From contig NZ_LWHM01000033.1 of the NCBI RefSeq assembly GCF_001642735.1, positions 62,001-126,000 of the forward strand: 64,000 bases of DNA. Direction: 5' to 3'. A program made the translations under genes and the position numbers. Shown here one piece after another: positions 17,344-59,547 of this stretch; position 1 is the first letter of the stretch, and every line of letters begins with the position of its first letter. A model generated the notes under the pieces. That model was not told where the DNA came from and ran no database searches. It saw nothing but the letters and a program-made list of their open reading frames with translations. The stretch is from Pseudohongiella nitratireducens. GTDB lineage: Bacteria; Pseudomonadota; Gammaproteobacteria; Pseudomonadales; Pseudohongiellaceae.

Positions 17344-17375
17344 AAGGCTGGCGCCTTCGCGCCAGCCTTTTTTTT
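17344..17375 (+). terminator. Strong Rho-independent terminator
   Basis: Perfect stem AAGGCTGGCGC / GCGCCAGCCTT followed by eight T residues. It lies 155 bases after the methyltransferase-like gene and just before the repeat array. Confidence 0.9.
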
Positions 17376-17416
17376 AGCCAACAAACCCCAGACACAACGA
17401 ACACAGCACAAGGGAA

Positions 17417-17773
17417 GGGCATCACACCACGCATCGCAGCCAGTGAGACCACGCTTTGCCTGGCACCCTTCACCCGAAAGAGCAGCCGAACTGTTTGAGC
17501 CGTCAGGCGAGTTTTCGGCTGCCGGGTGAAGGGTGCCAGGCAGTGGTCGGTTGCGATGCGTGGTGTGATGCCCTGACCGCTGTTCGAAAGTGCAGGCGGA
17601 CTGTCTGAAGCCGTCAGGCTGAGTTTCTGCCCGCCGAGCGACAAGCGGTATGCTGTGGTCGTCTGCCATCTGAGCTATGATGCCCTGACCGCTCTCAACC
17701 GAGTTTTCGGCTGCCGGGTGAATGGTGCCAGGCAGTGGTCGGTTGCGATGCGTGGTGTGATGCCCTGACCGCT
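17417..17773. repeat. Long palindromic repeat array, locus 1
   Basis: The first 157 bases (17417-17573) form a giant imperfect palindrome. Outer arms 17417-17441 and 17549-17573 pair at 24 of 25 positions. There is then a 5-base bulge (AGTGA), a 6-bp stem GACCAC/GTGGTC (17447-17452 with 17543-17548), a 4-base bulge (GCTT), a 20-bp perfect inner stem (17457-17476 with 17523-17542) and a terminal hairpin with GCAGCCGAA/TTTTCGGCTGC. The right arm then recurs once more at 17701-17773 with one mismatch over about 72 bases, offset 191. Between the two copies lies a second arm type (GCTGTGGTCGTCTGCC, 17653-17668). The same arm types occur at 38545-38985. No protein is supported here; minus-strand frames crossing it are chance. 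Confidence 0.9.
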
Positions 17774-18054: not shown

Positions 18055-20937
18055 ATGAAAACGTTTAACAATAATTTTAAACGCAGCAAGAAAGCGATGA
18101 TTCGTTCATTCGTTGCTGCTTGTGTTGCATCTTCTGCCACGCTGCCAGCTATGGTTGTGGCTCAGTCAGATACACCGGAAGTTGAAGAAGTCGTTGTTAC
18201 CGGCTCTTACATTAGAAATTCTGCATTTGCAGGTGCTTCTCCCGTAGACTCAGTGACACAGTCTGACCTGCTAGAGTCTGGCGCACCGGCAATGGGTCAA
18301 TACATCCGTGACCTGCCTTACACGCAAAACACTGACGTTGTTGCTAACGTAAACTCAACTCAAAACGGCCAGCAGGACTCAAACGCTGCCCGCTTCAATT
18401 TGCGCGGTCTGGGTACCAACAGCACGCTGACACTGGTTGACGGTGTTCGCTCTGTGAATGATGGCGCGGTTGCTTCGTTGCTGCCAGAAATCGCCATGGA
18501 GCGTCTGGAAGTGGTTCTGGATGGTGGTTCAGCCCTGTACGGCTCCGATGCTGTTGCAGGTGTGGTGAATTTGCTGCCGGTTAAAGAATTCGACGGGTTC
18601 CGCGTCCGTACTTATTACCAGACCGATGAAGAAACCAGCTTTGACGAGCCAAAAATCGGTTTACTCTGGGGTCGTTCTTTTGACAATGATGTGAACTGGG
18701 TAGCATCTTTCCAGGCTTCCAAAAAGACACCTGTACTGCGTACAGAGCGTCCTGAGTACCTTGAGTTTGATATCTCCGAATCATCATCAGGTAACCCAGG
18801 CAATTTCCAGGCAGCCGCTGGCGGACTGGGCGATGGTGGTACTGGTGCACTGATGCGTGATCCTTCTTGTGGTACGTTCAATGAAGGTAACGAAGATAAA
18901 ACAGAGTCTGGCGCTTTCCCAAGCGGTCAACCTTATGGTTCGACAACTTGCCTGTTTCACTACGGTACGCAACACGACTACGCGCGCGGTAATGTAGATT
19001 ATACGTTCTACAATAACGTTACCTGGGAACCAACCAACTGACTGCAGTTTGAGTTGCAATCCAACTACAACTACCGTGAGTCGCGTTACAACACATCAGC
19101 CAGCCTGAGCAACTCGACCAATAATCAGTTTGCTTTGTTTATTCCAGAAGCGCATCCAGCCAATCCATTCGGTGAAGCTGTTGTGCCTCGTAACTGGCGC
19201 CCATTCAATGGTATTTCTGGCACGAACCCGTCTTTCCTCAAAGACGATGGCCGTGATGTGCAGGACTACCGTTACTACACCAATGCCAACCGTCTGAATG
19301 CCCGTTACGATATCTCTGATACCTGGACAGGCTACTCTTACTACACCGTGCAGGAAATGCGTCGTTCTGTTGATACACGCACTCTGATTCTGCCGCGTCT
19401 GCAGGCAGCGCTGATGGGCGAAGGTGGCGTAAGCGGTGATCAGTGGTTTAACCCATTTGGTTCATCTGATTCACGTTCTCCATTCTACGAAGCAGGTGTC
19501 ACAGACAACAGTCAGGAACTGGTTGACTGGATGTTTGAAGAAGAGAATCAGCGCGAAGTGAGCCGTCGCAACCTGGAAGTATTCGAAACCATGGCAACGG
19601 GTGAAGTGTTTGATACGCCATTTGGGCCTTCTCAGATCGCTCTGGGTTTGCAACATCGTGACGCACGTGTACGTGAGACTCCAAACGTATATGCAGTCAT
19701 GGGGCAAAGTTACAATACTTCTATCACTGATGCGCCACCCTTTGCGACCGATTACACCGATCGTGTCAATGCTGCATTCGTAGAGTTTGAAGTACCTCTC
19801 TACGACACTGTTTCGGCACAGATCGCAGCTCGTCACGAGAATTTCATCGACCAGAATATTGATACCACGACGCCTAAAGTGGCACTGCGTTGGGAAGCAC
19901 TGCCTGAGCTGGCTCTGCGAGCGTCCTGGGGCGAAAGCTTCCTGGCACCAGATCCTGGTACGAACCGTCCTTTCAATGCCAACGAAGGTTGCGGTGAAGT
20001 GTTTGCCGGACTGGATCCGTTGACTGGCAACAGCCTGGCTGGTTCACAGTCTTGTTCATCAGGTAACCCTGATATCAAGCCAGAGACTTCTGAAATCATG
20101 AACATTGGTTTCACCTGGGAGCCACTGGATGAGTTAAGCTTGAGCGTTGATTATCAAACTATCGATTACAGTGATCGTATTCGTTCTTTGAGCACAGTGG
20201 ATTCAGTAGAGCTGCAATTCGCACGTATGCTGGAAGCCACTGGCATCTCTGAAGCTGATTACGATGCAACGCCTGGTTCCGATACTCGTGAAGCGGCCAA
20301 TGCATGGTTAGCTTCGCAGCCAAGCGGTGAATTGACTGCGCCTGGTATTCAGCGTGATCCAACGGACCAGTCTGTCGTTAAGACAGTGCGCAACCCGGCA
20401 AACATTGCTGAAGTGATGATTGACCTGATTGATGTGAAAAGTCGCTACCGCATCCCAACTAATAACTGGGGTACGTTTGTAACAACGTTGACTGCGTCTT
20501 ACTTCACGAAATACGAGTATGTTGACCTGTCCGGTGAGACTTCTGATGCGCGTGGCAAACAGAACGGTGACAGCGGTATCGTACCGCCACTGCCTAAGCT
20601 GAAAGCTAACCTGCGTCTGAACTGGTTCAAAAATGCGCACAGTGCTTCTGTGTCTGCAAACTACCAGCATCACGTAGTCACTGATGGTTCATTCTTTGCG
20701 TTTACAACAGGTATTAAGCCTGCTCGTACAATTCAGGCGCAAACACTGGTTAACGCACAGTACTCATACATCTTCGACGATCTCTTTGATAGCGAAGTGA
20801 CTTTAAGTGCTGGTGTTAACAACATGTTTGACCAGCGCGCACAGCGCCTCCCGCAACTGGGTGGTATGGAAACACGACTGCAAACACCGTTTGGTCGTCA
20901 ATTTTGGGTAAGCGTCGACTGGACGCCAGGCTTCTGA
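18055..20937 (+). pseudogene. TonB-dependent outer-membrane receptor interrupted by an in-frame TGA
   Basis: Two open frames (18055-19041 and 19054-20937) lie in the same phase, separated only by TGA at 19039-19041. Read through, they give about 960 residues: a signal peptide ending VVAQ, a TonB-box-like EVEEVVVTGS, a plug domain with FNLRGLGTNSTLTLVDGV and VVLDGGSALYGSDAVAGVV, then a 22-strand barrel ending WVSVDWTPGF with C-terminal phenylalanine. Alignment with the paralogue at 56686 puts the stop at a glycine, so one G-to-T change of GGA would explain it. The ligand is unknown. A terminator follows at 20972. It is either a true pseudogene, a sequencing fault, or rarely read through. Confidence 0.85.
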
Positions 20938-38483: not shown

Positions 38484-38515
38484 CAAAAACGGCCGCCCAA
38501 TGCGGCCGTTTTTTA
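38484..38515 (+). terminator. Terminator after ibpA
   Basis: AAAACGGCCGC-ccaat-GCGGCCGTTTTTT: an 11-bp stem with A and T runs, 31 bases after the ibpA stop. Confidence 0.92.
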
Positions 38516-38544
38516 TTGCCCGCCAAACAGCCGGTACACCACAA

Positions 38545-38985
38545 GGTCAGAACAGTATAGATTCGATGGCAGACACTAAGACCACGTTTAGCACTTAGGG
38601 CCTCGTTCGAAAAAGCGGGCGGACTGTTTGAAGCCACAGGCTGAGTTTTCGCCCGCCGAGCGGGGCCCTAAGTGCTGTGGTCGTCTGCCATCGAATCTAT
38701 ACTGTTCTGACCGTCCCCCGGCCGAGTTTTCGGCTGCCGGGTGAGCAGCGCCAGGCAGTGGTCGGCTGCGATATGTGGAATGATGGCCTTCCCTTCGCTC
38801 GAGAACAAAAGCGGACTGTTTGAAGCCACAGGCTGAGTTTTCGCCCGCCGAGCGGGGCCCTAAGTGCTGTGGTCGTCTGCCATCGAATCTATACTGTTCT
38901 GACCGTCCCCCGGCCGAGTTTTCGGCTGCCGGGTGAGCAGCGCCAGGCAGTGGTCGGCTGCGATATGTGGAATGATGGCCTTCCC
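38545..38985. repeat. Long palindromic repeat array, locus 2
   Basis: The first 168 bases (38545-38712) form a palindrome with a perfect 30-bp outer stem (38545-38574 with 38683-38712). A 5-base bulge (ACTAA) follows, then the 6-bp GACCAC/GTGGTC stem (38580-38585 with 38677-38682), a 4-base bulge (GTTT), a perfect 13-bp inner stem (38590-38602 with 38664-38676) and a terminal domain with GCGGGCG/CGCCCGC. A second arm type (GCCAGGCAGTGGTCGGC, 38750-38766) comes next. The 175-base block 38619-38793 is then repeated exactly at 38811-38985, offset 192. The plan is the same as at 17417-17773, although the outer stems differ in sequence. No gene is supported. Confidence 0.92.
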
Positions 38986-39051
38986 GTCTGACGACAACGA
39001 AAATCTACAGTATACTGCTGGCATCGTTTCACTTATTCAGATGGAATTGTT

Positions 39052-56685: not shown

Positions 56686-59547
56686 ATGCAAACAAATAAG
56701 AAGCAATACCTTCGCCGTATGATCAGTGCCTGCCTGGCAGGTGCGATGGCCGTGCCAGTGATCGCCTCAGCGCAGGATACCCCAGAAGTGGAAGAAGTGG
56801 TTGTTACCGGTTCCTTTATCCGTAACAGTGCTTTCGCTCAAAACAACCCAGTCGACACAGTAACACAATCCGACATTCTCGAATCAGGTGCCCCAAGCAT
56901 GGGTAACTATATTCGAGACCTTACCTACACACAGAACACCAATACAGTTGCAAACGTAAATGCTGGCGGCAGTGGTTCACAGTCCAGTGTTGGCACAACG
57001 TTCAACCTGCGTGGTCTGGGTGAAAACTCAACACTGACATTGATGGACGGTATGCGTTCCGTTGATGCCGGTATTAATACCTTGTTGCCAGAAATCGCAA
57101 TCGACCGTTTGGAAGTTGTACTGGACGGTGGTTCAGCACTGTACGGTTCTGACGCGGTAGCTGGTGTTGTCAACCTGATCCCTGTGAAAGATTTTGATGG
57201 CATTCGTGTGCGCGCTTACCACCAGCAGGATGATCCGGGTTCTTTTGAAGATAACAAGCTGGGCGTACTGTTCGGCCGAAACTTCAACAATGGTGTCAAC
57301 TGGGTAGTCGCTGCAGATTACGCCCGGACTACGCCTTTAATGACCTATGAGCGTCCTCGTCTGCTACGTGCTGACTACGGTTGGGCAACCTCGGGTAACC
57401 CAGGTGTATGGAAGGAATTGGACGGTGCTACGCCGAATATCGGCGGTACGCATGGTGGCTCTTTGGTAGGTGACAACCTGCCCGATCCGGATTGTGGTGT
57501 GTATGACGAACGCCTGGATCTTGGTCTGGCGCATAACAACCAGTCCGGTATTCCACAGCCCGGCGGCAACTGCTTCTTCCCGTATTCACAGCAGTGGCCA
57601 TTGGCCGAAGGCAAGGAAGAGTACAACATCTTCCAACACCTGACTTATGACCTGAGCAGTGGTGTGCAACTGAATGCGCAAATGTCTCTGGCTGGTCGTA
57701 AAAGTGAAAACCACAACACATTGAGCTATCAGTTGAATGCCAACAACCGTGGCGCGCTGGTTGTTCCAGAAAGCCATCCAGCCAATCCTTTCGGTGTAGA
57801 TGTGGGACCGAACCTGTGGCGTCCATTTGCGGATTGGGGCACCATGCCTTCGTACCGTGATGAAACTACCGGTGCTCGTAAGCAGGAATACGAAGATACG
57901 ATTCAGCGCTACAAAGTCGGTGCTGCATTTGATCTGACTGATACATGGACTGCCAACACGAATTACTCCTGGTAGCGTGTTCACCAGGATCAGAACTCTG
58001 ACATGATCAATCTGCCACGCTTGCAGCAGGCGTTGATCGGTCAGGGCGGTCCGAACGGCAATGAGTACCTGAACCCCTTCGGTTCTGCTGATGCTCGTTC
58101 ACCAAACTACGTAGCTGGCGTGACTGATAACAGTCAGGAACTGGTAGATTGGCTGGCACCTTCTATCGACTGGAGGGATTCTCAAACTGAACTGACTGTG
58201 TTCGAGATGAACGCTACCGGTGATGTGTTCCAGATGCCTGCAGGCATGGCGCGTATGGCGGTAGGTTACCAGATGCGTGATGTTGAAGAGTGGAATTATG
58301 CCAATCCACTATCCAAGTCAGGTGAGGACTACAATACATCAGTTATTGATTCCCCACCCATTGATCAAAACTACGGCAGCCGAGTTCAGGCCGCTTACGT
58401 AGAGTTTGAAGTTCCGCTGCTGGATACCTTGGATGCACAGATTGCAGTTCGTCATGAAAATTTCACAACGTTCGATCTGCAAACGACAACACCTAAGGTG
58501 GCACTGCGCTGGGAAGCGCTGCCAAGCCTGGCATTCCGTGCATCTGTTGGTGAGAGCTTCCTGGCTCCGACAGCAGCTGACGCCCGTCCGTTTGATCCAA
58601 ACGAGAACTGTGGTGAGATTTTCTTCGGTGCAGACCCGGTTACCGGTGGGGTACTGAACGGTGGTGCCAGCTGTTCTTCGGGTAACCCACGACTGAAGCC
58701 TGAGACGTCCGATATCTGGAACGTTGGCTTTACCTGGGAGCCTATCAATGACCTGAGCATCAGTCTGGATTACCAGTCTATCGAATACACAGACCGAATT
58801 CGTACCCTGGGTACAGAAGACGTAGTCGGTGAAGAATTCGATGCATTGTTGGCTGCCATTGGTTCGAATCGCGCATCCTACGATCCGACGCCTGGTTCAG
58901 CTACGCGCGAAGCGGCAAATGCCTGGATTGCGGCACAGGGTGATGAGCGTGTTACGCGTGATCCATCCACACAGCGTGTCGTTCGAGTGGTGCGTCAGTC
59001 ACAGAACGTGGCGACTGTATGGGTTGACCTGTTCGACGCCAATGCGCGCTGGACTTACGATACCAACAACTTGGGCTCATTCACGACGACACTGAGCGCA
59101 ACATACAACACCAAGTACGAGTATGCTGACGCCAGTGGTGATGTCATTGATGCATTGGGTAATCAGAATGCCCGTACCGGTATTGTTGCACCTGTACCTG
59201 AGCTGAAGTCACAAGTTAAACTGGCCTGGATCCGTGATAGCCACAGTGCGTCATTCACGTATAACTGGCAGGATGAAGTGGTCTTTGATGATGGCGTACG
59301 TAACACGCTGACAGGTGTTCAACCACCTTCAGACGGTATGATCCGTGCGTGGAAATCAGCCAATGCGCAGTACACGTACAACACCACTGACTACTTCGAC
59401 AGTGAGATCGGCATTAGTGTCGGTGTCAGCAACCTGTTCGATAACGTACCTCAGCGTTTGCCAGTGCTGGGTGGCTTCGAAAGCCGTCTGCACTCACCAT
59501 GGGGTCGTCAGTTCTGGTTATCTGTAGACTGGATGCCTGGTTTCTAA
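56686..59547 (+). pseudogene. TonB-dependent outer-membrane receptor interrupted by an in-frame TAG
   Basis: Two frames in the same phase (56686-57975 and 58003-59547) are separated only by TAG at 57973-57975 and a short stretch without a start. Read through they give about 953 residues: signal peptide (VIASA-QD), EVEEVVVTGSF, plug motifs FNLRGLGENSTLTLMDGM and VVLDGGSALYGSDAVAGVV, and a barrel ending WLSVDWMPGF. It is a close paralogue of the receptor at 18055. Alignment places the stop at a tyrosine (TAT or TAC to TAG, one base). Both copies are thus broken, at different sites and with different stop codons. A terminator follows. Confidence 0.85.

Follow-up and report, generated by a model that had tools for sequence, protein, structure and literature searches.

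Two loci in a 64,000-nt stretch of the Pseudohongiella nitratireducens genome (here called the window) can be folded into long hairpins that share the same order of stems and bulges while differing in stem sequence. This raises the questions of what kind of element keeps such a plan, which of its strands folds, and whether that strand does so as RNA or as single-stranded DNA (ssDNA).

Architecture of the two hairpin loci

Locus 1 (window 17416-17574) forms a near-perfect hairpin with a minimum free energy of -130 kcal/mol as RNA, compared with -60.1 ± 4.2 for shuffled sequences (z = -16.8; 0 of 200 shuffles were as stable), and the hairpin with a 5-nt and a 4-nt bulge on the left arm described in the original prediction was thus borne out. 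Locus 2 (window 38545-38712) is likewise near-perfect, with z = -14.7 when folded as DNA. As had also been claimed, its stem sequences are different, while the pairing, the bulges (here ACTAA and GTTT) and the GACCAC box are kept. The parts of both loci are listed in Table 1.

Table 1. Features of the two hairpin loci, in window coordinates
Feature	Position	Strand	Basis
Intrinsic terminator, 5′ of the 5′ end of element 1	17346..17375	+	sequence; terminator test
Element 1 (subtype A), conserved 5′ terminus CACAAGG	17407..17413	+	boundary scan
Element 1, outer left arm, 26 bp with one G-T	17416..17441	+	96% complementary to 17549-17574
Element 1, conserved 5-nt bulge AGTGA (family A[GA]T[CA]A)	17442..17446	+	parsed copies
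Element 1, left 6-bp box GACCAC	17447..17452	+	99.5% of cells paired, 31 copies
Element 1, conserved 4-nt bulge GCTT (family GYTT)	17453..17456	+	parsed copies
Element 1, inner left arm, 20 bp, perfect	17457..17476	+	100% complementary to 17523-17542
Element 1, A-rich 5-nt bulge, 5′ of apical core	17477..17481	+	folding
Element 1, apical core GCAGCCGAACTGTTTGAGCCGTCAGGCGAGTTTTCGGCTGC, P. nitratireducens variant of the cross-phylum motif	17482..17522	+	divergence; motif scan
Element 1, inner right arm	17523..17542	+	complementarity
Element 1, right box GTGGTC	17543..17548	+	folding
Element 1, outer right arm	17549..17574	+	complementarity
Element 1, conserved 3′ terminus GACCGC	17575..17580	+	boundary scan
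Extra right half, type B, without left arm	17581..17694	+	repeat comparison
Extra right half, type A	17695..17773	+	96% identical to 17503-17581
Intrinsic terminator of hsp20 gene, 5′ of element 2	38485..38515	+	sequence
Element 2 (subtype B), 5′ terminus CACAAGG	38540..38546	+	sequence; boundary scan
Element 2, outer left arm, 30 bp, perfect	38545..38574	+	100% complementary to 38683-38712
Element 2, 5-nt bulge ACTAA	38575..38579	+	folding
Element 2, box GACCAC	38580..38585	+	folding
Element 2, 4-nt bulge GTTT	38586..38589	+	folding
Element 2, inner left arm, 20 bp, 90% Watson-Crick	38590..38609	+	complementarity
Element 2, A-rich bulge AAAAA	38610..38614	+	folding
Element 2, apical core, type B	38615..38656	+	parsed and aligned copies
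Element 2, inner right arm, box GTGGTC and outer right arm	38657..38712	+	complementarity; folding
Tandem extra right halves A, B, A at locus 2	38713..38986	+	repeat comparison

The repeated right halves are of two types, A and B, which alternate in 11 of 14 chains and give a 192-bp period. At locus 2 the 192-bp dimer unit stands in tandem (38603-38794 and 38795-38986, 96% identity), and at locus 1 the offset between right-arm copies, originally put at 191 bases, measures 192 (17503/17695). Right-half copies with a 118-bp tandem repeat accompany hairpins of a third subtype, C, on another contig (L265 15950-17640, G000:C26), where a HigB-like toxin gene (PF05015) and its helix-turn-helix partner lie between hairpin copies. 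On the same contig, a HipA-like gene and its HTH partner are enclosed by hairpin remnants of both orientations (L265 1169-4867), as is a separate HTH_37 gene. As a further observation, the TonB-receptor-like genes at window positions 18055-20937 and 56686-59547 each consist of two consecutive ORFs, possibly through a frameshift, a split gene or an assembly error.

A dispersed family in the genome and the genus

A covariance model was built from 31 aligned intact hairpins, parsed with Watson-Crick pairing only. The original prediction had staked itself on such a search finding further copies, and these were found: 41 full-length copies in P. nitratireducens (one strand counted per copy) and, under strict filters, 5-29 in each of the 14 other genomes of the genus examined. 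Outside the genus, the model matched once or twice in three further genomes of the family and once in a different family. In the P. nitratireducens genome itself, a BLAST query with locus 1 gave 59 matches. Rather than two independent structures, the loci are members of one dispersed, probably mobile repeat family.

The element measures about 180-195 nt, with hairpins of 159-168 nt in P. nitratireducens and about 195 nt in its relatives. From the left, the general plan runs CACAAGG, an outer arm of 26-30 nt, a 5-nt bulge, a 6-bp box (GACCAC in P. nitratireducens, GGCCRC in relatives), a 4-nt bulge, an inner arm of 20 nt, an A-rich 5-nt bulge, the apical core, bulge-free right arms and GACCGC. 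Subtypes A (that of locus 1) and B (that of locus 2) are the main ones in the genome; subtype C is found on contig C26 (L265). In a joint scan of both boundaries, 20 of 35 P. nitratireducens copies passed with a CACAAGG-type end, and no target-site duplication was detected at these copies. The bulge AATCA is present in 33 of 43 copies from relatives, while the arms of these copies diverge by 53%. The relatives' hairpins often occur as divergent pairs with facing 5′ ends (for example, G009:C1:2071689-2074222 and G012:C41:13942-14398), and in the first of these genomes two such pairs flank a serine hydrolase-like gene. A search of the open-access journal literature with core strings and descriptions returned nothing relevant; the family may already have a name elsewhere.

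Pairing is kept while the arms change

Among the 31 genomic copies, both sides had changed in 48 of 67 pairs. Cells were paired in 97.4% of cases; shuffling lowered this to 78.7% and sliding the partners to 33-45%, and the covariation score was 0.545 compared with 0.07-0.13 after sliding; the copies had been preselected for pairing at a loose threshold, which trimmed the worst-paired ones. The shuffle test is inflated by the relatedness of the copies, and we therefore give more weight to the slide control and to the strand test below. Copies of one subtype diverge by 25-29% in the arms and by about 10% in the apical core. Non-Watson-Crick pairs make up 5.5% within a copy, and the same 5.5% was found in the relatives, with their 53% arm divergence.

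Double Watson-Crick changes outnumbered single ones 200 to 68, and 83 of the 200 were transversion pairs, for which no route through a G-T intermediate is possible. These counts fit both arms changing in one event, as would happen in a passive repeat under no structural selection, whose arms stay complementary only because one is corrected from the other as a template when the DNA replicates (quasipalindrome correction). Because templated correction can also give double changes, covariation alone is no proof of selection. Such correction, however, predicts the loss of bulges, and the bulges are kept in the parsed copies (the parser required the bulge spacing); the covariance model tolerates bulge loss, yet copies align to it at full length.

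The folding strand

A single transition that breaks a pair leaves either G-T or A-C on the bulged strand, and the two should be equally frequent without a strand-specific constraint; equal numbers are also what templated correction predicts. The count found was 111 G-T to 25 A-C (55:12 in P. nitratireducens, 56:13 in relatives), copies of shared ancestry not being independent, and a looser method gave 92:44 in distant phyla. Polarised against the subtype consensus, C>T exceeded G>A 31:8 and A>G exceeded T>C 10:2; cytosine deamination alone is insufficient, because the second pair of changes shows the excess too. The bulged (+) strand is the strand whose folding matters. As a sole cause, templated correction is largely refuted by the strand asymmetry and the conserved bulges, and we consider a purely passive repeat improbable; the process may be part of what makes paired changes fast. 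The claim that different sequence with preserved pairing is the product of selection on structure stands in part: the sequences do differ while pairing and bulges are kept, and the shuffle, slide and mismatch comparisons make the effect strand-specific, but the covariation on which the claim was based does not prove it.

Gaps between convergent genes hold 20 of 35 P. nitratireducens copies and 20 of 43 copies in relatives, and divergent gaps hold 2 and 5, respectively. Of the 35 P. nitratireducens copies, 18 have an intrinsic terminator no more than 150 nt upstream that is oriented toward the folding strand, compared with 3-5 of 35 on the other side of the copies and 5 of 183 background windows. 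In relatives this link is missing (2 of 42 copies), and in P. nitratireducens it may be a local insertion habit.

These data bear on the main rival to an ssDNA element, a structured RNA (a 3′-end or independent small RNA) from a dispersed repeat, whose (+) transcript would fold and become the target of a binding or processing protein such as RNase III or another RNA-binding protein. Tolerance of G-U on one strand combined with covariation is a classical sign of RNA structure, and the apical core kept over phyla and the copies at gene 3′ ends also speak for it. However, where a terminator stands ahead of the folding strand, transcription from the upstream gene would seldom reach that strand, and the neighbour on the opposite side, usually a convergent gene, transcribes the non-folding strand. 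The G-T excess persists at terminator-shielded copies (20:6), which argues against an mRNA-level cause. Moreover, Rfam 15 at its gathering score gave no match for the window or for any sampled copy from P. nitratireducens, its relatives or distant genomes. The terminator and convergent-placement evidence leans, indirectly, toward ssDNA over RNA, and we regard the structured RNA as rather unlikely.

Comparison with known elements

REPs are palindromes of 20-40 bp with a GTAG, CGTC or GTGG tag at the foot (PMC3733652, PMC6006769). REPs and REPINs with their TnpA-REP (RAYT) transposase resemble the present family in being dispersed intergenic palindromes that form bulged hairpins, in strand polarity, in a preference for gene 3′ ends and in the lack of target duplication. 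The present family differs from them in its size, its long unconstrained arms and its other conserved apical core. In place of a tag 0-2 nt 5′ of the foot, most copies have CACAAGG followed by the outer stem. A tnpA-REP gene would also be expected to have copies on both sides, but the 3.3-kb locus (L031) of the single Y1 gene in P. nitratireducens contains no hairpin copy.

ERIC, RU-1 and RU-2 are sequence-conserved families of enterobacteria. These MITE-like repeats (127 and 168 bp; PMC2759123) are similar in size class, palindromic, intergenic and without a cis-encoded enzyme; the present family is set apart by description, in that its arms vary while its plan is kept and its core spans phyla. 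Classic MITEs with inverted repeats and target duplications are likewise non-autonomous with terminal complementarity, whereas the P. nitratireducens hairpins show no target duplication.

Integron attC sites are also folded single strands, with structure-bound, sequence-free arms and extrahelical bases on one arm, and the hairpins could serve an integron integrase or a Xer recombinase as attC-like sites. An intact integron integrase in 4 of 15 genus genomes (L320-L323) and the toxin-antitoxin genes between copies in one region agree with this. In other genus genomes, however, the integrase is decayed or fragmentary, and P. nitratireducens, the genome richest in copies, has fragments only (G000:C23:206201, C30:6552). 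True attC sites are shorter, with R and L boxes and a GTT core, and lie in cassette arrays with intI. The attC boxes RYYYAAC and GTTRRRY were found in only some type A copies (GCCTAAC/GTTAGGC) and were absent from types B and C and from most relatives; most copies lack the GTT core and no array arrangement was seen. In the genus, the attC-like site that lies next to an intact intI, at about 3358-3422 of L322, has the ordinary form and a length of ~65 nt and is unrelated in sequence to the hairpins. We consider an attC-like origin very improbable.

Perfect arms of unrelated sequence and one-sided right-half repeats would fit fold-back copying, as in a retron- or group II-like retro-element whose arms arise by snap-back reverse transcription. 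The reverse transcriptase domain (PF00078), however, is absent from P. nitratireducens and from 9 of the 14 other genus genomes, and this origin is hardly credible.

Possible movement and the search for a partner enzyme

One hairpin copy in a relative (G023) lies within a roughly 400-bp insertion in the tilS-pyrG gap (L291). This insertion contains two hairpins, is bounded by terminal inverted repeats of 23 bp that match perfectly and has a direct repeat of 8 bp, a likeness to classic MITEs; it is missing from four congeners. At this site, the only one with empty relatives, derivation of the arms from the insertion target was unsupported. At the ortholog of the gene preceding locus 1, three relatives (G008, G010, G012) lack the element, and their downstream genes differ too; no clean empty site was resolved for any P. 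nitratireducens copy among the relatives compared. Comparison of skew with copy strands in the complete genome G009 gave no evident replication-strand bias.

No linked transposase, reverse transcriptase or integrase was found beside copies. An all-against-all comparison of ORFs around 121 distant loci yielded no common gene family, the clusters being spurious frames through the hairpins, and in Pfam searches of 130 neighbouring proteins the 25 commonest families were of the ordinary housekeeping kind, with no mobilisation enzyme recurring. DUF559 was rejected as a partner, being missing from P. nitratireducens and nearly all of the genus. A Y1/RAYT enzyme was rejected as an obligatory partner: it also occurs in relatives in which no hairpin was found, and in distant core-bearing genomes, many of them MAGs, it is present in 31 of 50 and absent from 19. 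The P. nitratireducens Y1 transposase-like protein (L031 892-1929) carries a Bac_DnaA_C domain, and its HuH motif looks altered, reading DQYH where NHYH is expected. Y1-matching open frames of about 326-345 aa recur across the genus.

The apical core across phyla

The apical core in relatives reads GCG.GAGGACTGTYTGAG..(small hairpin)..CGAGTTCCGCA.CGC. A scan of GTDB genomes with the pattern GGACTGTYTGAGN{2,32}CGAGTTCCGCA found the loop motif AGGACTGTYTGAG..CGAGTTCCGCA in at least 120 stretches from several phyla; the matches listed include Gallionella, Dechloromonas, Nitrospira, Lachnospiraceae, Eggerthellaceae, Bacteroidales, Patescibacteria and others. Among these listed matches, many cores are flanked by arms of clade-specific sequence, with a median aligned arm of 17 bp and arms of at least 15 bp in 73 of 126. 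Since bulge details vary in distant clades, the comparison there supports a shared core rather than common descent of the whole hairpin. On mobile carriers, the core was found on one viral contig in a phage and plasmid search, and the plasmids gave no convincing match. Several betaproteobacterial hairpins (L114, L121, L140 and others) carry a direct repeat, GAGCAACGCAG / GAGTAGCGCAGGG, in an internal loop and a conserved CTTTTCTTTGGTTACTT-like tail.

It is possible, although we think it somewhat doubtful, that a bacteria-wide class of elements exists in which an apical core of ~45 nt and a long bulged hairpin with sequence-free arms are moved as folded ssDNA by an enzyme of no known element. 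If so, an attC-like principle would operate without integrons.

Discussion

We tentatively favour, at a little below an even chance, the reading that the hairpins are non-autonomous mobile elements recognised as folded ssDNA by a trans-acting enzyme. It accounts for the dispersal, the covariation, the G-T asymmetry, the kept bulges and the conserved ends without target duplication. In this mechanism, the bulged (+) strand would fold and be read by an enzyme encoded elsewhere in the cell, through the apical core and the pair of left-arm bulges flanking the G-C box, with CACAAGG and GACCGC as conserved ends. As shape rather than arm sequence would be read, the arms could drift freely as long as pairing held. 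The elements would come to lie chiefly where two convergent genes meet, and tandem extra right halves would be what remains of incomplete events. The copies are dispersed and intergenic, mostly between convergent genes, and have no linked enzyme gene; their arms change in a coupled and strand-asymmetric way around fixed bulges, core and ends. The ssDNA route of spread, the protein acting in trans on the fold and the origin of the right-half arrays as by-products are what we infer from these observations.

Four points count against an ssDNA element. The gene searches returned no mobiliser, the Y1 gene being single, unlinked, apparently altered in its HuH motif and missing from 19 of the 50 distant genomes; no P. 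nitratireducens copy could be matched to a clean empty site in a relative; the complete genome G009 gave no evident replication-strand bias; and the long perfect outer arms seem to exceed the needs of protein contact.

The family seems to represent a small mobile (or structured) element of a kind not described before. Bacterial interspersed palindromes have been pictured as short units with a conserved sequence and an associated transposase; here the arms turn over, what persists across several phyla is a shape together with a small apical core, and the mismatches reveal which strand folds. With this family it becomes possible to test which protein recognises the fold and by what process the two arms change in concert, and it provides a natural system in which selection on structure can be told apart from templated correction of the arms.
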